Part shown: positions 1-11,587 of the stretch, one piece after another
Position numbering within the stretch: position 1 is the stretch's first letter
Layout of the letters: each line of letters starts with the position of its first letter
NCBI GenBank assembly: GCA_001953115.1
Contig: LSSL01002937.1
Location: 1-11,587, forward strand
Direction of reading: 5' to 3'
Source: Smittium mucronatum
Lineage: Eukaryota > Kickxellomycota > Harpellomycetes > Harpellales > Legeriomycetaceae
Length of the DNA stretch: 11,587 nt
Position numbers and translations under genes: made by a program
Notes under the pieces: generated by a model
The model's database searches: none
What the model saw: the letters and a program-made list of their open reading frames with translations, nothing else
Told to the model about the DNA's origin: nothing

Positions 1-290
1 AGATGGATCTCAGCGTCTAACAGCTATTTGTAGGAAAGCCATGTCGATCAAACCCACGTTTGGGTAGGAGCCTAATTTTATCAATCCTGTTAGAAGTAGG
101 CTCTGACTAGGAGCTCAATAGCTTCAATGAACTGTTGTTCATTGACAAAGAGCTTAATTCATGACTGCATGTAACCTCAGTCATCCAGCCTACTTGAAGC
201 AATGCCAGGGGGGGTATTTCGGTTGGTAGATTGAACCCTTTTCCCGTAGGTACGCAGCCGGTAGTCCGGTAGAGGAGCTTATTGTAGTTA
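1..290. other. GC-rich structured segment of unknown identity
   Basis: I counted 134 G+C in bases 1-300 (45%), against about 20% in the DNA that follows, and the drop occurs near base 290. The segment runs off the left edge. It holds four perfect stem-loops in a row. They pair 52-56 with 61-65, 68-74 with 97-103, 124-132 with 137-145 (9 bp, TGTT loop), and 161-167 with 178-184. A short direct repeat CCGGTAG-T-CCGGTAG lies near 258-272. In an AT-rich genome, raised GC together with serial hairpins is typical of structured RNA genes, but old transposon fragments can look the same. The minus strand is open from about 496 to 107, but most of that frame crosses the AT-rich flank, so I do not call it a gene. 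No tRNA, 5S or conserved large or small rRNA core motif was found. Confidence 0.5.
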
Positions 291-379
291 GGATAATAGT
301 CTTTTCTATACGTCTTTTTCTTTTTTTCAAAATTTTTTAGTATAGTTTTTAATGAAGTTATCTTACAATAGAATTCCGT

Positions 380-399
380 AAAAAAAAAAAAAAAAAAAA
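380..399. repeat. A20 homopolymer
   Basis: An uninterrupted run of 20 A. It lies about 90 bases right of the GC-rich island. It could be the remnant of a retroelement poly(A) tail, but no target-site duplication was seen, and A runs are common in DNA this AT-rich. Confidence 0.9.
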
Positions 400-1736
400 T
401 GGTATAATTGTGCCCAAGAAAAAAAATATAATATAAGAAATGATTTAGCAAACAACTAACTTCCATACTTAAACTAAATAAACCCCACTTTTTCAAATTG
501 TTAATTTTTTTATAAAAATTATAGCATGAAATATATATAAAGATATATATTTTTCATATTACCAGGTTTTAAAGAAGAAAATTGAATAAACGTATAGTAA
601 CATTAACTATCTAGTTTATTATGCAAAATAAGACTGATATTTTTAATAACACGAATTAAAAGCGTAGGAATGTCAAAAAAAATCAAGAAAAATACCAGAC
701 TCAGAAATATCAAAGCTATATATATATAACAAAAATAATACACACACTTCGCCATTTATATATTTAATACAGCTTTTAAATTCATTAATAAATGTTTAAT
801 ATTTATAAAAAAAATTCTAAAACATCTATAAATCAGAAAAAAAGGCTAAAATATATTTTAATTAGCAATATATAACAAGTAAATTGATATTATTTAATCA
901 AAAAGCATAAAATTTATTGACATTGTATGTATAAATATCAAAATAAAATCTTGCACTCAAAATTTATGTTTAAACAATTAATTTAAAATTTCCGTATTTT
1001 AGTATCCCTGATTGATACATGTCTATTTTAGAGATTGATAATTATTTAATAAAAAATAGTAATAAAAATATGGTATTAAATCACCTATTATCTAGTAGTT
1101 TTGTAAAAGTAATATATTAAATCACCCTCAAATCATTTTTTAGCTAAAATGTAAAAATAAAAGGAAAAAAAAATGTATTTAAATACTATCTTATAAATAA
1201 TAACACCTCAGAACTAAACTAATGTGATGAATTTTATTAAAATGTTATAAATATGCTGTAAGTGATTGAAACCACTAAGTTTATGTGATCTTTTTAATTA
1301 ATTGTGCTATTTATGTGGATGTGATTTTTAAATAGATGTGATTTTATTTTGGTGATTCTGAAATCCAAGTAGATGAATTATGAATTATGATGGGTAATTA
1401 GGTGCATTAATAGAGTAATTATCGCAAATAAATCCAAAATTAAAACAAACGAAATTATACTAAGGATCCAATATATATATTAAATTGTAGCGATTTTAAT
1501 ACGCTATTAAATCATTTCAAATACAATGAAAACCATAAAAAATAGTCTGTATTTAAACAGAATATACCAAAATTTAGAAATTGAATACCAAAAAATATGA
1601 AAGAAGTCCAGTTTAAAACGAGAAATAAAGACATTAAATCCAAAAACTTCAACGATAATACGAAAGATAATGAAAAAACACTATCTAAATATTATCAATA
1701 ATTTCAACAATTTTAATTTACAGGAGTGATAACTAA
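400..1736. other. AT-rich DNA without recognisable genes
   Basis: No coding-like frame was found on either strand. Only weak short repeats are visible: TTAAATCACC occurs near 1077 and 1118, and GATGTGATTTT occurs twice near 1318 and 1334, with further TGTGAT copies near 1223 and 1283. They are too short and irregular to call a tandem array. Confidence 0.6.
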
Positions 1737-2067
1737 GTTACGATTGCGATTGCTTTTTTGATTGAAAATGTGAAAGCATATTTAGCTAATTTTGATAAAG
1801 ATTCTGCAATTAAATTTGGTATTGAATTGCTTTATATAATTTTGTTTTTTATTTATGCAACTGTTTCTAAGGAATTTTTTTGAAATCTCTGCTTCTGTTA
1901 TTAAAGCTTCTGCTGCTTTGAATATTTCTGATTTTTTAGCTGTTTACGTTTCTGTCGCTGTTAAGATAGTAAATGCTATTTTTTTGCGACTTTTTTTATA
2001 TAAAAATTTTTTTTGTAATGTTTTGTATCCTAATTTAATATTTTTTCTTAATTTCTTTAACGTTTAA
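1737..2067 (+). pseudogene. Broken coding-like frame, unrecognised
   Basis: One frame is open from 1737 (just after a TAA) to a TGA at 1881-1883 and reads like protein, for example AFLIENVKAYLANFDKDSA. The next frame carries on at once from 1882 (EISASVIKASAALNISDFLA) to a TAA at 2065-2067. The join falls in a run of seven T at 1875-1881, where one T fewer would give a single frame of about 110 codons. The codons favour G or A in first position, unlike the flanks. The product looks hydrophobic, with probable membrane segments around codons 30-42. No ATG is seen at the left end, and I recognise no family. It could be a decayed gene, a sequencing error in a live exon, or a transposon relic. Confidence 0.4.
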
Positions 2068-2206
2068 GCTAACTTATTTAAAATTTTCATTTTTTATTAA
2101 GATATTTATATACCGAAAATCACTTTTTACTTTTTATTTCATATATTTATAACAATTTTTAAAAAAATTGAATCTTTTTTTTAATATAAAATATATATTC
2201 TATAAT

Positions 2207-2227
2207 ATTTATTTATTTATTTATTTA
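2207..2227. repeat. (ATTT)5 microsatellite
   Basis: Five perfect ATTT units and a closing A. It is a simple repeat with no evident role. Confidence 0.85.
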
Positions 2228-2311
2228 AAAAAATATAATTTAATTGGCAAAGACAATTTTATTTTTAAGCTATTTTATTTGAGACTGATTAAATGTGGTT
2301 GCTAAAATCAT

Positions 2312-2364
2312 CACAAATTCCATTATCCCATGTTTGATCGCGCCCAACATGACAAAAAATTGTG
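2312..2364. repeat. Imperfect inverted repeat around a GC-richer core
   Basis: CACAA at 2312-2316 pairs with TTGTG at 2360-2364, and CATGTT at 2329-2334 pairs with AACATG at 2346-2351. The loop holds TGATCGCGCCC, unusually GC-rich for this region. It could be the end of a small decayed DNA transposon, but no target-site duplication is visible. Confidence 0.35.
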
Positions 2365-2583
2365 AATATTTTATTGGTTATTTTTCATTTATTTTTATTT
2401 TCCCGAAATCCACTTTTGCACACGTATTTTATATCTATTCTTAACTTTCATGCCAAAAATTCTCAGAATGAAGCGCTTAAATATATGCACGAGTTTGAAA
2501 AATATAATTATACTTCTATTATATTGCTTCATATATTTTTTCCATTTAAATTTTATCATGGGCTCATCAACAGCAATTATTAG
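2362..2583 (+). other. Possible coding relic, unrecognised
   Basis: A frame of 73 codons. The first half is low-complexity and hydrophobic. The middle (NSQNEALKYMHEFEKYNYT) has a more protein-like composition. By a rough estimate, stop codons make up about 9% of codons at this base composition, so one or two open frames of this size are expected by chance in the window. I recognise no domain and have little confidence that it was ever a gene. Confidence 0.15.
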
Positions 2584-2813
2584 TGAAGAATTGATATTTT
2601 TTGTATTTTTCTTTTAATATAATTTATAAATGTTTTTTCTAGTCTGTTGAATTTTTGAGAATATGCTTCAAAACCATCAAAAATATATAATTTTGATAAA
2701 ATATATTCAAAAAATTTAGATTTCATAAGACATAATATATAATAGTAATTTAGTTTAGAGTTTAAAACACAAGAACCTATGTAGGACGTAGATTTTTTAA
2801 TATAAATAAACAT
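2580..2813 (-). other. Possible coding relic, unrecognised
   Basis: A 77-codon minus-strand frame. Its second half (KLYIFDGFEAYSQKFNRLEK) has a mixed, protein-like composition rather than the simple F/I/N/K pattern of random AT-rich DNA. No family is recognised, no neighbouring frame continues it convincingly, and it may be chance. Confidence 0.2.
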
Positions 2814-4772
2814 TAATATCTAAAATAATTTTCTGCACATCGAGATCAAAATGTATCTTTATTTAATTTTTACTCAGTTTATTTTTAGAATGGTTTTTAG
2901 ATTTTTTTTTAAACATTAGTCAGACACTAATAAATTGAAGATTTTGGAGGCAAAATATTGCGATATTTAATGTGAAATCTGGTATGTTGGTAGCACCAAA
3001 AAAAATTGTTATTATTACCAGATAAATATTTTCTTTCTTTCTCCAAGATATAATAGAATTTTTAGGGTTTACATTATATAAATTAGAATTAATAATATTT
3101 TTTAAATAAATGGAGTTGTAGATCAATTTATATGCCCAATTAAATTATCTAAAACATATTAAGTAATATTGGCAGGAATTAAATGTGTGTTTGATAAATA
3201 GTTAATAAAAGAATATTTCTGTGAAAATTTATCATTCCCTTAAAAATAAAATTCAATAAACTTTTAAACTAACATTAATAACTCTTAAAAAATAACCATA
3301 AATTTTCAAAAAGATAATTAATATTGATAAATAGTGAAAATTGAAAAATAAATAAATATGTAAAAATAAAGGGTTGCAACAATCTAGAAGTAAAAATCTG
3401 AGAAAAATATCACAAAGGATAAGTAGTAAAAAAAATATTTGTAAATATTGGGAAAAAAAAGAGATAAAAAAAATTATTGGGTACAAAATATAATTGTCTA
3501 TGACAATAAAAAAAAATTCATATACTGGATACCCTTCTTATAAGTAGATGCTTCCCTACTTAGTATCTACTGCTTTCCTGATTTGTGAAATTAACATTTT
3601 TAATGTATAAAATTATTTAATAGCTCAAAATTTGAATTACAAAAACGAATCTCTTAATGGAAAAAATAAAATAAAATTCTCATTATTTTATGTGCGATTT
3701 TCCATTTTCATTGGGGTTTCAACCAATGAAGTTTTTTCTATCCAATGTTATGCATAATATAAAAATTATTATTTCTCTAACAAGAATCTCTCTTATAAAA
3801 CAAAATATATTTTCACAGTGTCATTAAATTGTAAATTATAGAGTACAAAGGTAACAATATTTGTTAAGAAAGTTCCGGAATTCTCAGATATGGCAACAAT
3901 ACAGGGTTTTGACTCATTTTTTTTGGTCTAAAAATTTAGACAGCGAAAAAAAATTTTATATTTAAAAATCAAAAGTTTCGTGCAGTAAGTGTCATAATCC
4001 TAGAACATAAAAACGATATGTAATTTACCATGATTTATTTATCTAATTTTATAACTTTTTCTAAAACTATTTTTAGCATAAAACAAAAAAATTTGGACAG
4101 AAAATGAAAAAAATTTCGATATTTATATTTAATATGAGTTTAATATAATAATTTTAGTCATAAGTTGAAGCCTGTATAAGAGTAAGTTATAATTTGAAAT
4201 TAAATTTTTTGGAGAATAGATTCGAAAACTTGATTACAGATATGAATTAAAATTACACCATCAGTTCAAAGTCTATAATAATGTCTTTAAAAAAATCGAA
4301 GTCAAAAATAATAATTTTTAGGTAGCAATTTTTCTTTCTTCTGATTGCTTAATTTTTCTTTTTTTTACTTCATCTATTTTTTTCAGACTATGTAAGTAAG
4401 AAAAAAAATATTTTTTAGACCGCTTAAGCTACATCCACGCTTTATGTGTTGTATAAATTACTTAATGTAAAAATTGAAATATTTTCAAATAATGTAAATG
4501 ACCTGTTACAAATTCATAGCATTAATAAAAATTTCTTATTTCCAATAGGTGGAAGCAAATATGAAATTTGTGGGAGTTTGAAATATTTTTCGATCTCAAA
4601 AAAAGTCTGAAAACATTATAAATTTTCATTTGAACAATTTAAAATGTTCTTCAGCGCAGAACTCGTCTCAAAGATTAGTGTTTTTTATCGGTTTAGGATT
4701 AATTCAATTTTTGTAAATGGTAAATTATTTCCAATAGAAAGATATTAATAACTTTTAAAGTAGCTGTTGATA
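2814..4772. other. AT-rich DNA without recognisable genes
   Basis: Minus-strand frames of 68-77 codons occur near 2920-3126 and 3253-3486, but they are low-complexity and hydrophobic and look like chance. The only local structure I note is a stem-loop at 3543-3571. No promoter, RNA gene or repeat family was recognised. Confidence 0.5.
3543..3571. repeat. Stem-loop, 7-bp stem
   Basis: AGTAGAT at 3543-3549 pairs with ATCTACT at 3565-3571. An alternative fold pairs AAGTAG at 3542-3547 with CTACTT at 3556-3561. It sits in a slightly GC-richer patch. It is probably incidental. Confidence 0.4.
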
Positions 4773-4892
4773 TCAAGATGTCAGTAGATAAAATTTTTCC
4801 GATTTCACATCTGCTTCATATTTTTTAAGTGATATTCCCCAAATGCTATGAGCTTTCCCATTAGGCATTATTTCATTAATTGGTGATATTAT
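4773..4892 (-). pseudogene. Coding-like fragment, unrecognised
   Basis: An open frame of 39 codons plus stop with a clearly protein-like composition (EIMPNGKAHSIWGISLKKYE), read from 4892 to 4773. It follows the larger fragment at 5148-4918 on the same strand, as expected for one decayed gene. No domain is recognised. If the parent element is DIRS-like, this would lie in or after the recombinase region, but no catalytic R, H or Y motif could be placed. Confidence 0.35.
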
Positions 4893-4917
4893 CTAATTTG
4901 CGATAGAATAATTTAAT

Positions 4918-5148
4918 TCAATTTTTTTTATCTAAATCTGTTATAAAAAACAAGTTATCCAATATCCGCCTGTTTCCGATTTTTTTGCATAGTATAGGTA
5001 AATTCCAGCATATTTTCAATGGTTGTAAACCACATTTTTTCACCTTTTTCAGATTTTTCGGATTGTGAACCAAATTTAATGAGATAATTTTTATTACATG
5101 TCTTCTGAAAAACGCTCTATTCCTTGCAGCCCACTTCTTTGAATCCAA
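4918..5148 (-). pseudogene. Coding-like fragment, unrecognised
   Basis: A minus-strand frame that starts in the stretch NPLDSKKWAARNRAFFRRHV. At about 5035 a neighbouring frame becomes the more protein-like one (KMWFTTIENMLEFTYTMQK, 5035-4955, ending in TAA), and the first frame resumes with DNLFFITDLDKKN. That suggests two small indels in one former gene. The family is not recognised. Placement within a tyrosine-recombinase retroelement rests only on strand and neighbourhood. Confidence 0.4.
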
Positions 5149-5399
5149 AGGATTTTTAGATCCAACAAAATGTTAATTTTTTTTAATTTTGGAAAGTCCA
5201 ACTTTTTAATTATTCACCAATAATACAAGCAATTAATTATTTTTCGAAAAACCAAATTTGTGAATTCTGTTGGTTTCTTATTTATTTTATTATTTAGATT
5301 TTTAGAGAGCCATTAATCCTTGTTTGTGATGTAATTGGCTTGTTTTTTGGGAAAAATTCTCAGCAGGTATTCAGAAAAAAAATTAAATATATAATAACT

Positions 5400-5738
5400 C
5401 AGGATTTTTTTAAGTTCAAAGATAACAAGTCAGCAAAATTGATAAAATTTGGTTGATCTGAATTTGATTCTTTTTTCCAATATATTAATCCTTTTTTGGT
5501 ATGATTTTTATTTTTTGGTATTTTTTGGTTTAATTGATCCCTTTATTAGAACTTTAGATGAATCCGGATCTTCTGGCACTCGTTTATTATAGATTCTATG
5601 CTGAAATTTAATATTTTGTGTGATTTTTATTGAGTGGGGGATTTTTGTGCATACTGGTAAATTTATAAAATGCGGTAATGGGGTTTCTACAGTTAATTTT
5701 GTGTTATTATTACCAACTGAAACTGTTATTAAATCGTT
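5400..5738 (-). pseudogene. Possible tyrosine recombinase N-terminal domain, decayed
   Basis: A 76-codon open stretch (5738-5508, minus) includes RVPEDPDSSKVLIKGSIKPK followed by NTKK and a TAA. Reading on, first in the same and then a shifted frame gives KSYQKGLIYWKK and PNFINFADLLSLNL. A pattern of basic-P-x-T-K-K-Y-x-S-Y, then W about eight residues later, then F-x-x-(F/L)-L, resembles the SAM-like core-binding domain of tyrosine recombinases. This is pattern resemblance only. The catalytic domain could not be traced. The plus-strand frame over 5620-5853 is its antisense and is not annotated. Confidence 0.3.
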
Positions 5739-6427
5739 TTATAGAGTTTTTAGAGTATTAAGAAGGTTTTTGGGAAGAATTTTCTCCTTTTTTGGCTTAT
5801 TGATGTATCTATTCATCTTAAGTATCAATTGGATTTTTTTTTCTTTTAATTGATAGCATTTTAGTTGTTTTTTTATCATCAATTCATAAAATTAAATTTA
5901 TATATGGAACCTTCTTCTGTTTAACTAATTAAGAAAAGAATTTTTGCAACTGCAATTCTTACACTTTTTTTATTTCCTAGAAAATCAATCAACTAGTATG
6001 GTTTCCTTCTACGATTTATGAATGGTTTTAAACGTGAATTTTTTATTTTTTTATATATCCCGCAGTTCCTTGGTAAGGTCAAATGGTTTTCGATAGGAAT
6101 TTTTCCCTCATTTCAAGAATATAGTTTTTTTTGTGGTGATTTCTGTTTTTAGCTAAAATTTTGAGTTCACCAGTGCTATATTATGGGTCTTGGTGTATTA
6201 AATAATGTTATAGATCCCTTTTAATCAGTATCGTATCGCTCTTTCCTTTTTTGTAGTAAATAATTCATTTCCAGTAGATATTAGCTACCAATTTTGATAT
6301 TGATTAATTAAAACTCAATAAACTTTTTTAATTATGTGGAAATGGTAGTGGATTATTTTAACTGTAATTTTGGAACACCATAGACTAATTTATTTTTAGT
6401 TAGGGCCCCCTCTATTAAAATACAGCT
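5739..6427. other. Unreadable stretch inside the eroded retroelement
   Basis: No fragment longer than about 20 codons reads well on either strand. On the minus strand near 5880-5820 there is a short lysine-rich patch (TTKMLSIKRKKNPID). If the flanking pieces belong to one DIRS-like element, RNase H would be expected here, but no DAS-type motif was found. Confidence 0.35.
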
Positions 6428-6659
6428 TATCTCACTTTCGTTGCAGCAACTAAAAACTGCAAACATAGTTCTGGCGCCCGAATTATAGATATTTGATGAT
6501 TTATATATTTTCCTATTTTTCTTCTAGTTTTTTTAGGCGATTTTGCGGCAGATTAATTTTATTTTTTTTTGTGTCAAACACTACCCCAAGAAACTTCTGT
6601 CTAATCAATGATTCTGTTAGGTATAATTTAAGCTGTAAAGCAAATAATCGGATCCCCAG
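6428..6659 (-). pseudogene. Reverse transcriptase fragment, DIRS-like
   Basis: The minus frame from 6659 to the TAG at 6515-6513 (48 codons plus stop) reads LGIRLFALQLKL, then KFLGVVFDTKKNKINLP, then QNRLKKLEEK. An LG-(I/L)-x-L segment about 20 residues before FLG-(I/V)-x-x-DT, then a (R/I)-x-LP box and a K/R-rich helix, is the layout at the thumb end of RTs from DIRS/Ngaro-type retrotransposons. Further on, 6462-6428 reads LQFLVAATKVR, similar to the LQ-x-L-x-G...A-x-x-V segment that follows in those proteins, with several residues lost. The fingers and palm with the YxDD motif are not present to the right (6660-7021). It is non-functional. Confidence 0.5.
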
Positions 6660-6848
6660 GCAATTATTCTCCTGTTTTTATCTTCTTTAAAATCTCTCTT
6701 TCTATACGGCCTTTATATATAAAAGTATTATGGTTACATTAATATTGGTCTACTTATATCTTTTCTACATACCATTTTTAATTTTTTTTTAAATAATAAC
6801 CAATAAAAATATATACCAATTTTAATAAATAATATTTCTCCCACTTCC

Positions 6849-6892: not shown

Positions 6893-7107
6893 ACACAATT
6901 TTACATATAAAACAATGGATATAAATGAAATTATGAAAAAATTTAATTTTGCGCATTATTATTTTTTGAAAATGAATATTTTTGCATACTACACGTTAGA
7001 CATATAATACCATTGGTCAGATTTACGGAAAAAACACAAGCTCAATGTTTTAATATATTATAAAATTGCCTATAGTAAGATATGTTTATTAAAATGTATA
7101 GGGTTTT

Positions 7108-7467
7108 TTATTGGCAATAACAAGAAATTAAGCTAGATTTGATAAAGCCAGGAGCTTTTGGAATTGCGTATATTCCATTTACAATATCATCAAATTTAAA
7201 TTTTTCACAATCATGAATAAAAATCCAAAAATCCAAAGAATTAAATAAAATAATAATTTTGAAAATCATTTTTAAGAACAGTATGTCTCTTTTGCTAAAG
7301 GGTATGGATTTTTTGTTTTTTTTCTTTACTCTACTGCTTTTTTAAATAAAGAATAAAGCGCTTTTAGTTAATGGAGTCTTCAAACCTAACAAATCTTGAA
7401 ATGAGATCAGCCATCTATTTGCAGCAAACAAATCATAAACCATAAAATTTGGGATAAATTTTTGTGA
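7108..7467 (-). other. Coding-like frame in the left arm (copy of 11142-11501)
   Basis: This is the mirror copy of the frame described at 11142-11501, with identical sequence. It faces outward, away from the transposase. The product is unrecognised and contains one internal stop. Confidence 0.35.
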
Positions 7468-7516
7468 TTAATGCATCAGATATAAGAAAATTTTATCAGA
7501 GTAGATATATAGCAGA

Positions 7517-7527
7517 CCCCCCCCCCC
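7517..7527. repeat. C11 run in the left arm
   Basis: Eleven C in a row, matched by twelve G at 11081-11092 in the right arm. This is extreme for DNA of about 22% GC. The length difference shows either true divergence of the arms or a homopolymer sequencing error. Confidence 0.95.
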
Positions 7528-8360
7528 AAGACACATCTGCTCCTCAAAAACGTTAAGCTTATATCTTTTCATGAATTATTTAGAAAAAAAGACCAATTAT
7601 ATAAAAATTTTACACAATTAATTAATATTTATAAATAGAGAGAATCTTGTGTCTCTGATGGCCCATATTGAATATAAAAAGCCTGAAATAATCCCTAATA
7701 TATTTTTAAATCTTTACCACAAGCAGCTAATATAAATAGTTTCTTGAAAAAATACACCTTATTAGCACTAGCACGCTCCAATATAAGTTATAATACCTTT
7801 TTAACAACTAAAAAATATTATAAATTTTAATAGAATCAAATATATCAGCACATAACCCCCAAAACTAGTCTGTATATCCTAAAAAAATTTATTAACCAGC
7901 TATTTTTATAAAAAAATTACTTTTACCGAGATGTTTATAATATTACCAACTGAACTTTTGCCGCTTAAGTGATGATTTTTATTATAAGAAGCCTTTTTTT
8001 AAACGATATAACACGCCGAAATATTTTTCAAAACTTATTAATAGGCACTGAGGCCCCAGATTTTATAATTTATTTTTTAATATAAATCAGATTTTCTTCT
8101 ATGTTTAAAGTGTTTGTTTTATTCACATTTTTTTGTATTTATGTTTATATTTTGAGTATAAATTTTTCATTTCAAAAAACAAATTATATTATGTTTTGTT
8201 TTTCAGATTTTTTGAAAAAAATCTAGTTAATTTTCCACTGATCCTTTAAAATACTACTTAAATATCCTTAAAAAATTTCATCCAATTTTATTTAATATAA
8301 ATTATATCTATTGCGTACCACTTCTAAAACTTCCTAAATACAATGGTGGATTTTATACCT

Positions 8361-8820
8361 ATTTATAAGCTAGCTACCATTATTATCAAATATAAATATT
8401 TGTAACTGAAAATTTCAAAAATTATTACAAGTTTGATATTGACTTTTTAGGTGCTGCGGAAGTTTATTTTTTTATATATGCTATATTAAATAAGTACATA
8501 TCACTAAATATAGAATTTAATACCTGTTTTTATTTATTTTTTTGTTTTCCTCAACTTGAATAAATGTATTTATTATTAAATTGTATTGTTTGCGTATTTA
8601 TTGTCGCGTAAATATTGAAAATGCATTTTTCTATCAATTATTAACAAAATTAACGGAAAATGATATTTTAAATTTTCTGTATCTTTACTTTCATTATACA
8701 GTATATTAGATATAGATTATTTTTTAATATAAAAGCATACATTTATGGTAATTAATTATGACTTATCCTTATTTATTTTAAATGAATCCTTAGATAAACT
8801 TAAGTATTAGGAATTGTAAA
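8361..8820. other. 5' part of the transposon spacer, no readable gene
   Basis: It lies between the inner end of the left arm and the first readable FLYWCH codons. Very AT-rich, with no convincing frame. The promoter and N-terminal codons of the transposase would be expected here, but I cannot place a start codon. Confidence 0.4.
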
Positions 8821-8913
8821 ATTTTATCATTTGATGGATAATTATACCATTTACATCGTAAAAATAGAATCAATGGGAATTCATATTACATCTGCGCCAA
8901 AAAATGTATGTGA
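8821..8913 (+). pseudogene. FLYWCH zinc-finger part of the MULE pseudogene
   Basis: The frame reads LSFDG-stop-LYHLHRKNRINGNSYYICAKKC. The FDGYxY start, the basic stretch with NGxxYW, and a Cys pair are the FLYWCH pattern; the usual Trp of YWxC is Ile here, and GY has become a stop (8839-8841). The expected His pair seems to be kept in the next readable piece (NRSHESE near 8993-9013), about a dozen codons further on than usual, which suggests a small insertion. FLYWCH fingers bind DNA and commonly precede MULE domains in animal-type transposases. Confidence 0.65.
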
Positions 8914-9247
8914 TATCAAAAATCAAACACTCATGGTGACCTCCTATATGTATTTAGAAGTAGGATCATTTTCATAATAAAAATTGTGATAAAATCGTAG
9001 CCATGAAAGCGAGGATTCTAATATTGAATTAGTTATGTCTAATGAATATATAGCTCTCATAATATATATAAAGGAAAATTACATTTATTTGCAAGAGTAT
9101 TGAATAGCAGTAATTTCTTCTAGGCCAACCCTTGTTAGAATGATAAACAGAAACAGAGCCGGAATTATATCATTTTCCCCCAAAATATACTTGGATTAGA
9201 TGAGCTTCTAGATTATAACAAGCTCACACTTAAAGAGCAATTTTTTG

Positions 9248-9658
9248 TTTTTTTATTTCTCAGGACCAAAATTTAGAAGAAACAGGATCTCTATATCTTC
9301 GACGATAAAAAAATTTGGACTTTTTTTCAATTCAAAAGTTTTTTCTGTTGATGTGACTTTTAAAGTAGCTACATCAGCCTTTTGCCAAACATTTACAATA
9401 CATGGGATGTATATGACCTCAACTTTATCGTTATTTTATTTTCTATTACCCAATAAATTTTATGTTACATAAAAAATAGTATTTTCGAAAATAATTGAAT
9501 ATTATATGTCAAAAGGGATATATATTTGCTCTTCAGAGAACATAATAAGCGACTTCAAACTTTCAGTGATAAAATTAAACCTATTATATTTCACATTTGC
9601 CAATATAATACTTTACTTCTTCCATTTAGGGCAAAGTATGTTTAGAATGTTCAAATAA
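9248..9658 (+). pseudogene. MULE catalytic core, first two acidic residues visible
   Basis: In one frame with a single internal TAA (9470-9472) this reads SGPKFRRNRISI, FSVDVTFKVATSAF, TFTIHGMY, FLLPNK, IISDFKLSVI and FFHLGQSMFR. These match the MULE consensus blocks DGTFK-x-x-P, Q-(L/F)-x-T-IHG, LLPNK, (S/T)DFE and GC-x-FH-x-x-Q-S-x-x-R. The first catalytic Asp is codon 9350-9352 (DGTF changed to DVTF). The second is 9551-9553. The cysteine before FFH has been lost to Tyr. The frame ends at TAA 9656-9658, and similarity continues in the same frame to 9781 (REVFSWL). Confidence 0.85.
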
Positions 9659-9816
9659 AAGGGATTATATATGCTCCATCTAAACCCTGAAAATAGAGAA
9701 AACAAAACAGCAGTGGATAGATTTCTTTGCACCAAATCCTTCTTTTTAGAAGATAATCGTGAAGTGTTCTCATGGTTATAAACAGTTTACCATAAAAAAT
9801 GATAGAAAAAGGTGTA

Positions 9817-10194
9817 TATTTTGAAAAAATTTATATTTCTGGAAATTTAATATGAAACCACAGTGAATATATAGCTTTAATATATCCACCTAATCAATGG
9901 AATCAGTTTTTAATAGTAAAAACAGGTGAAAATAGAACCAAAAATACTTTGTAATCACGACATTCTAAATTCTCAAAATTGTAGAAAACCCAAATTCCAC
10001 ATTATACAGCTTAATCGATTCCACAAAAAAAAGAAAAAAATGGCTATTCAGTTTTAGTCACGGAGTTAAACTTAGGAAAAAGGATAGATGAAACTAGAAG
10101 AAAAAAATATACTAATCTAAATAAATATATATTTAATATTGTAAAAAACTATAAAAATAAAAAGCGGGATGTTTGGTTTATTAAATATTTATAA
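9817..10194 (+). pseudogene. C-terminal MULE region with stop at the catalytic Glu position
   Basis: This frame reads YFEKIYISG, IYPPNQWNQFLIVKTGENRT, then KNTL-stop-SRHSKFSKL, and later NLGKRIDETRRKKYTNLN and FNIVKNYKN. The family pattern is YFE-x-x-YIG, P-x-x-WN-x-(F/Y), RTNN-x-x-E-x-x-H-x-x-F, then RRKKY and a closing helix. The TAA at 9952-9954 stands where the Glu of NN-x-x-E is expected; one base change from GAA would give it. Further stops are at 9853, 9982, 10012 and 10192. The right arm begins 54 bases after the last stop. Confidence 0.8.
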
Positions 10195-11080
10195 AATTGT
10201 GTGAATTTATTTTCATTATAGATATTTAAAAAAAAAAAAGATAAAAACAGGTATAAATCCACCATTGTATTTAGGAAGTTTTAGAAGTGGTACGCAATAG
10301 ATATAATTTATATTAAATAAAATTGGATGAAATTTTTTAAGGATATTTAAGTAGTATTTTAAAGGATCAGTGGAAAATTAACTAGATTTTTTTCAAAAAA
10401 TCTGAAAAACAAAACATAATATAATTTGTTTTTTGAAATGAAAAATTTATACTCAAAATATAAACATAAATACAAAAAAATGTGAATAAAACAAACACTT
10501 TAAACATAGAAGAAAATCTGATTTATATTAAAAAATAAATTATAAAATCTGGGGCCTCAGTGCCTATTAATAAGTTTTGAAAAATATTTCGGCGTGTTAT
10601 ATCGTTTAAAAAAAGGCTTCTTATAATAAAAATCATCACTTAAGCGGCAAAAGTTCAGTTGGTAATATTATAAACATCTCGGTAAAAGTAATTTTTTTAT
10701 AAAAATAGCTGGTTAATAAATTTTTTTAGGATATACAGACTAGTTTTGGGGGTTATGTGCTGATATATTTGATTCTATTAAAATTTATAATATTTTTTAG
10801 TTGTTAAAAAGGTATTATAACTTATATTGGAGCGTGCTAGTGCTAATAAGGTGTATTTTTTCAAGAAACTATTTATATTAGCTGCTTGTGGTAAAGATTT
10901 AAAAATATATTAGGGATTATTTCAGGCTTTTTATATTCAATATGGGCCATCAGAGACACAAGATTCTCTCTATTTATAAATATTAATTAATTGTGTAAAA
11001 TTTTTATATAATTGGTCTTTTTTTCTAAATAATTCATGAAAAGATATAAGCTTAACGTTTTTGAGGAGCAGATGTGTCTT

Positions 11081-11092
11081 GGGGGGGGGGGG
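11081..11092. repeat. G12 run in the right arm
   Basis: Mate of the C11 run at 7517-7527, one base longer. Single G runs of this length can slip in replication and can join in intermolecular quadruplexes, but no multi-tract G4 motif is present. Confidence 0.95.
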
Positions 11093-11141
11093 TCTGCTAT
11101 ATATCTACTCTGATAAAATTTTCTTATATCTGATGCATTAA

Positions 11142-11501
11142 TCACAAAAATTTATCCCAAATTTTATGGTTTATGATTTGTTTGCTGCAAATAGATGGCT
11201 GATCTCATTTCAAGATTTGTTAGGTTTGAAGACTCCATTAACTAAAAGCGCTTTATTCTTTATTTAAAAAAGCAGTAGAGTAAAGAAAAAAAACAAAAAA
11301 TCCATACCCTTTAGCAAAAGAGACATACTGTTCTTAAAAATGATTTTCAAAATTATTATTTTATTTAATTCTTTGGATTTTTGGATTTTTATTCATGATT
11401 GTGAAAAATTTAAATTTGATGATATTGTAAATGGAATATACGCAATTCCAAAAGCTCCTGGCTTTATCAAATCTAGCTTAATTTCTTGTTATTGCCAATA
11501 A
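11142..11501 (+). other. Coding-like frame in the right arm, unrecognised
   Basis: One frame of 120 codons with one internal stop (11265-11267) and a final TAA at 11499-11501. By a rough estimate about eleven stops would be expected at this base composition. Readable parts are MVYDLFAANRWLISFQDLLG, then KSSRVKKKNKKSIPFSKRDI, then DDIVNGIYAIPKAPGFIKSS. The ANRWLISFQ stretch faintly recalls a helix-turn-helix of the CENP-B/Tc5 type, but this is weak. It could be an accessory gene of the transposon, a captured host gene fragment, or an older insertion. The same frame is in the left arm on the minus strand. An ATG at 11340 would give a 53-residue product. Confidence 0.4.
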
Positions 11502-11587
11502 AAAACCCTATACATTTTAATAAACATATCTTACTATAGGCAATTTTATAATATATTAAAACATTGAGCTTGTGTTTTTTCCGTAAA

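Follow-up and report, generated by a model that had tools for sequence, protein, structure and literature searches.

In foldback transposons, the inverted repeat makes up most of the element, and the palindromes of mammalian Y chromosomes are kept uniform by gene conversion. MULEs (PF10551) with long terminal inverted repeats (TIRs) have inverted arms of hundreds of base pairs or more around a MULE-type transposase. In the available portions of two surveys, MULE TIRs measure 14-500 bp across eukaryotes (PMC6446971) and at most 1193 bp in arthropods (PMC13359780). The Smittium mucronatum locus described here shares the MULE anatomy, as do other MULE relics in this species with TIRs of 385 bp and 801 bp. 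Its arms are longer than those reported in either survey, in a comparison limited to these two surveys, from which we claim no record. As in foldback transposons, inverted repeat accounts for the greater part of the element, but here the spacer is occupied by a MULE transposase relic and TRF detected no tandem repeats in the arms (its single array lies outside the element). As in the Y palindromes, the two arms at one locus are alike, while those of homologous loci have diverged. Unlike those palindromes, the locus is a transposon, its arms contain no recognised host genes, and conversion is something that we only infer.

The window that we analysed is 11,587 nucleotides long and comprises an entire contig (C1589). 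Comparing the window with itself using BLASTN revealed a 99.7% match between 7022-8367 and 11587-10242 (1347 columns, E 0), while the remaining self-matches were only 30-42 bp. The initial annotation described arms with no substitution and two one-base indels, and base-by-base comparison bore this out for 7022-8360, placing the indels in a C run (7516/11092) and at a T (8351/10258). The differences were clustered at the inner edge, with three in the inner 17 bp (P 1.7e-6); beyond these 17 bp, the C-run indel was the sole difference between the arms. No arm frame stayed free of stops for more than 87 amino acids, so the arms were taken as non-coding. An Rfam search of the window gave 0 matches.

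Features of the element in the window
Feature	Positions	Strand	Basis
Left arm, outer part; partner would fall past the contig end	6728..7021	+	Homology to C1598, C2913 and C2177
Left arm, present twice in the window	7022..8367	+	99.7% match to 11587-10242
Proposed innermost part of the ancestral arm; retained on the left, with about 159 bp apparently missing on the right	8368..8547	+	Present in both C2913 arms
Spacer with decayed MULE transposase gene	8548..10241	+	Similarity to C1598 and C2913; stops
Best-preserved piece of the transposase relic	9128..9493	+	Match to C2913 piece
Inner end of the right arm and start of its perfect copy of the left arm	10228..10258	-	Match to left arm; clustered differences
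Right arm, cut by the contig end	10242..11587	-	Self-match; base-by-base comparison

Two earlier statements about the extent of the arms need amending. The match between the arms had been said to continue past the window. On the left, homology to C1598, C2913 and C2177 begins at about 6728-6786 and takes the arm out to about 6728-6743 (giving an arm of about 1.8 kb by homology); the right arm stops at 11587 because the contig stops there. Positions 5400-6740, further left, matched only themselves in the genome. The second amendment concerns the inner boundary. The counterpart of 8368-8547 is contained in both arms of C2913 (6-713 and 5318-6024), and we read the ancestral arm as having run inward to about 8547, and the right arm as having lost about 159 bp of this stretch, bounded by two ATACCT sites. 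Positions 10228-10257 matched 8546-8517 at 26 of 30 bases, and from there on the right arm copies the left one perfectly.

That the arms surround a dead MULE transposase, as first proposed, was supported by a relic at 9128-9493 and by a Pfam MULE match in a homologue. The spacer was 67.9% similar to C1598 and 75-77% similar to C2913, and the three forward frames of 8548-10240 contained 35, 35 and 53 stops. The relic aligned with a 132-amino-acid piece of C2913 (E 6.8e-19, 44% identity, three stops), and a further match reached 49% over 77 amino acids. The same 132-amino-acid piece matched C1598 at 7308-7663, again with stops. The adjoining piece of C2913 scored 28.9 bits against the Pfam MULE family (cut-off 27.6), and it is through this homologue that a MULE-type DDE transposase is recognised; Pfam searches of the window's own masked frames returned 0 families. 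All three contigs that hold the spacer (the window, C2913 and C1598) carry broken transposase pieces. For the C2913 piece, 5.3% of possible substitutions create a stop, so finding three stops within 366 bp points to a substitution level of roughly 15% since the gene died, although the error on this figure is very wide. Arms that had escaped conversion should differ by at least several percent. Long terminal inverted repeats, also expected of a MULE, are present in the window and in C1598. Our verdict is a MULE family that is dead and whose TIRs are very long, a known kind of element. The arms of this family have probably been homogenised.

We searched the S. mucronatum assembly (73.8 Mb, 2957 contigs, about 72% of the published size) for copies with the same ends, as the initial annotation suggested. 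Homologous structures were found on three contigs, C2913 (both arms), C1598 (both arms) and C2177 (one arm), together with three short arm matches of 57-64 bits; the end was shared by C2913 and C2177, but not by C1598. The arm-spacer-arm layout is common to the window, C1598 and C2913, and the inner boundaries correspond. The palindrome is therefore older than the copies and, since C1598 has both arms, ancestral. In C1598, the left arm (3429-3994 and 4911-6689) and right arm (8414-10210 and 10249-10814) are about 2.4 kb long, with pieces pairing at 73.7% and 78.6%; in the shared 1.6 kb, these arms are 81.0% alike (1570 columns). C2913's two arms showed 0 substitutions in 707 columns, and both there and in the window the arms are identical save for homopolymers and the inner edge. 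Arms on different contigs were 69-83% alike in comparisons of at least 1280 columns, placing the copies 17-31% apart, and the short left arm of C2913 was 65-86% alike to other arms. C332, the next relative, matched arm and spacer at 60-65%; at the threshold applied, it showed no inverted arms itself. C2177 may possibly be C2913's missing arm, as the two are 83.4% alike.

The window, C2913 and C2177 cease to be homologous near a single point and their flanks differ, as for dispersed copies at different sites. The end near 6728 is not common to C1598, whose arms run on, and C332 goes with C1598 there. As a candidate outer end of the element, 6728 is thus backed by three contigs and contradicted by two. 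For comparison of target duplications, the window offers one element end only. Target duplications were sought at C607 and C699 and at two candidate ends of C1598, and none of the 8-11 bp expected for a MULE was seen. All spacer copies here are broken, and on both points the family would differ from other long-TIR MULEs.

Several other repeats were encountered in these contigs. C2177 carries a 3.2-kb insert in its arm (1641-4829), at which no clear target duplication was seen. A 2.9-kb insert in the transposase spacer of C2913 (1261-4166) has GTTTAGAT on each side and ends CAATG and CGCTG; we take it to be hAT-like, and one of its open pieces had no Pfam match. A match of window positions 7-442 to C2913 was considered as a longer arm and rejected, as it belongs to a high-copy repeat. 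This young repeat (window 1-400) recurs at 93-97% identity, over about 390 bp or longer, in at least 39 further places on contigs, many of them at contig starts, among the best 40 of 2412 candidates.

The small number of loci, arms that match at any one locus but vary from one locus to the next, and a shared core would also fit inverted-repeat centromeres, such as those of Candida tropicalis or Komagataella. However, the transposase relic that forms the core has relatives in 29 contigs among the matches listed, the outer C1598 arm belongs to a repeat with 44 places among the matches listed, and host genes lie on both C2177 (a 4-nitrophenylphosphatase, 100% identical to an S. mucronatum protein) and C1598. 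That the structure is centromere-like rather than a transposon is therefore very improbable. Alternatively, a dead copy may have been mobilised recently by the transposase of another element, from a parent with identical arms and with no later conversion. The genome contains 131 MULE matches, some in open frames (those on C583, C303 and C432 have no stops in the matched part), which could supply such an enzyme. Nevertheless, recent mobilisation is hard to reconcile with family copies that are 17-31% apart and with our finding no near-identical sister copy among the assembly contigs; moreover, the parent itself would need homogenised arms. We consider this explanation improbable. Some MULE matches came as contig pairs of identical score and frame (C928/C1775, C181/C2309, C1498/C1550, C748/C2730, C633/C2516 and C1860/C2410), which are perhaps unmerged haplotypes or duplicated segments.

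A third possibility is that the perfection arose during assembly: in an ordinary long-TIR MULE whose true right arm is diverged or shorter, the assembler would have spelled the left arm again in reverse as far as the contig end. The window's second arm is perfect and runs to the contig end, as would a foldback artefact, the alternative already named in the initial annotation, and its inner 30 bp are the imperfect ones. The window, C2913 and C2805 are alike in having inner-end differences followed by perfection to the contig end, while in C1598 and C699 (an 801-bp inverted repeat, 95.8%, with a MULE match), both inside contigs, the differences are spread along the arms. C2805:1-750 reproduces 3417-4166 exactly as its reverse complement, a match that crosses the shared end of the element near 809 and enters other DNA. 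Such passage of a palindrome beyond the element into unrelated flank was seen in C2805; in the window, the right arm ends before the element's end. Overall, C2805 folds exactly to its first base (1-1420 versus 2745-4166), beyond the TIR element into another repeat. Other copies of that repeat are mostly on contigs not among the listed matches to the C717-type TIR, and C2290 has both repeat and TIR, about 140 bp apart, in another order.

Other loci argue against such an artefact. C717 carries, in its interior, arms that agree at 641 of 641 bases, and its far flanks form no palindrome where one would be expected. These arms (85560-86200 and 87640-88280) include about 50 bp outside the sequence common to other copies. 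C607, a 385-bp inverted repeat (97.9%) with a MULE match that also lies inside a contig, has its arm differences at two edges, with three inner differences and 317 perfect bases. Thus, clustering alone is no proof of an artefact. In the window and C2913, identity begins at the spacer, where reads would have to support the true path. Further, divergence between arms would not produce contig breaks at their edges such as that of C2177, which begins at the arm's inner boundary. On balance, we find it doubtful that the assembly accounts for the arms of the window.

Paired arms with matching scores also occur elsewhere in the genome. With a C717 arm as query, two arms were found on ten contigs among the matches listed (42 rows, the best 40 of 127 candidates). 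Despite the divergence of the copies, paired scores were nearly equal in C717 (1157 and 1157 bits), C2805 (580/575), C392 (500/495), C110 (401/397), C2838 (348/341) and C1454 (335/332); the others were C1123 (444/424), C1055 (462/420), C754 (413/337) and C1916 (481/265, partial). Among 20 MULE loci examined with about 1.5 kb on either side, an inverted repeat of more than 100 bp was present in one (C699) and absent from 19.

The draft itself bears on these readings. The published genome is 102.35 Mb in 7,797 scaffolds with 26.05% GC and, in the available part of that 2018 Harpellales paper, its four new genomes are Illumina data assembled with Ray (PMC5954228). The available text on a sister draft gives Illumina and Ray too (PMC4974312), and judging from these sister drafts the S. 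mucronatum draft appears to rest on short reads. We counted by eye how often contigs start in the element, using contig starts only. A single arm in the same orientation lay in the first 400 bp of 12 contigs (C2607, C1239, C1532, C2859, C1284, C983, C1535, C1331, C1207, C305, C1144 and C1380; C717-arm query, 40 of 127 candidates scored). Matches to the relic fell in the first 3 kb of 14 of 29 contigs, versus 12% expected (P 1.7e-6; 30 matches listed, query's contig included). For MULEs at large, the figure was 12 of 131 rows. Since far-diverged arms should not break an assembly, contigs that often start in arms suggest that near-identical arms are real. The reading of the contig-terminal palindromes as pure artefact is weakened by this pattern.

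We favour, with moderate confidence, an old and inactive MULE-type copy with very long TIRs whose arms are near-identical, most likely through recombination or gene conversion, and whose exact identity can be trusted near the spacer only. The element would once have moved via a transposase coded between its arms, as in other members of its class. The arms of one copy would then have stayed or become near-identical while the copies drifted apart, and arms this alike could collapse in a draft assembly, so that contigs stop in or at them. For this reading, we counted the shared anatomy, the transposase relics, the independently spelled arms of C1598, the contig breaks at arms, the near-equal paired arm scores and the start of the window's identity directly at the spacer. 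Against it, we counted the walk of C2805 back over its own flank, the 19% separation of the arms in C1598 (the closest whole relative), the lack of inverted arms in C332 and of a repeat at 19 of 20 MULE loci, the failure to find a target duplication, and an outer end at which three contigs stop together while the C1598 arms run on.

How far the identity can be trusted depends on distance from the spacer. At the spacer, read pairs should hold the assembly walk on the true arm, and near-identity there is probably real; exact identity would be trustworthy within roughly one library insert. Further out, the draft does not show it independently: a contig such as C2805 can be folded over its flank, so identity at a distance from the spacer does not count as separate evidence. 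The same caution applies to any perfect palindrome that closes a contig in a draft of this kind.

A stronger form of the favoured reading, which we put forward tentatively, is concerted evolution: arms of well over 1 kb would have been kept identical by conversion after the transposase died, with the window, C2913 and perhaps C2177 fresh and C1598 drifting. If so, the arms would exceed the MULE TIR maxima in the available portions of both surveys (PMC6446971, PMC13359780). As it stands, the family adds an insect-gut fungus to the hosts of long-TIR MULEs, and its arms are above those maxima as far as the two surveys report them. If the arm identity is real, a fungus in which some dead copies have identical arms and others, side by side with them, have drifted ones would allow arm-to-arm conversion to be measured.
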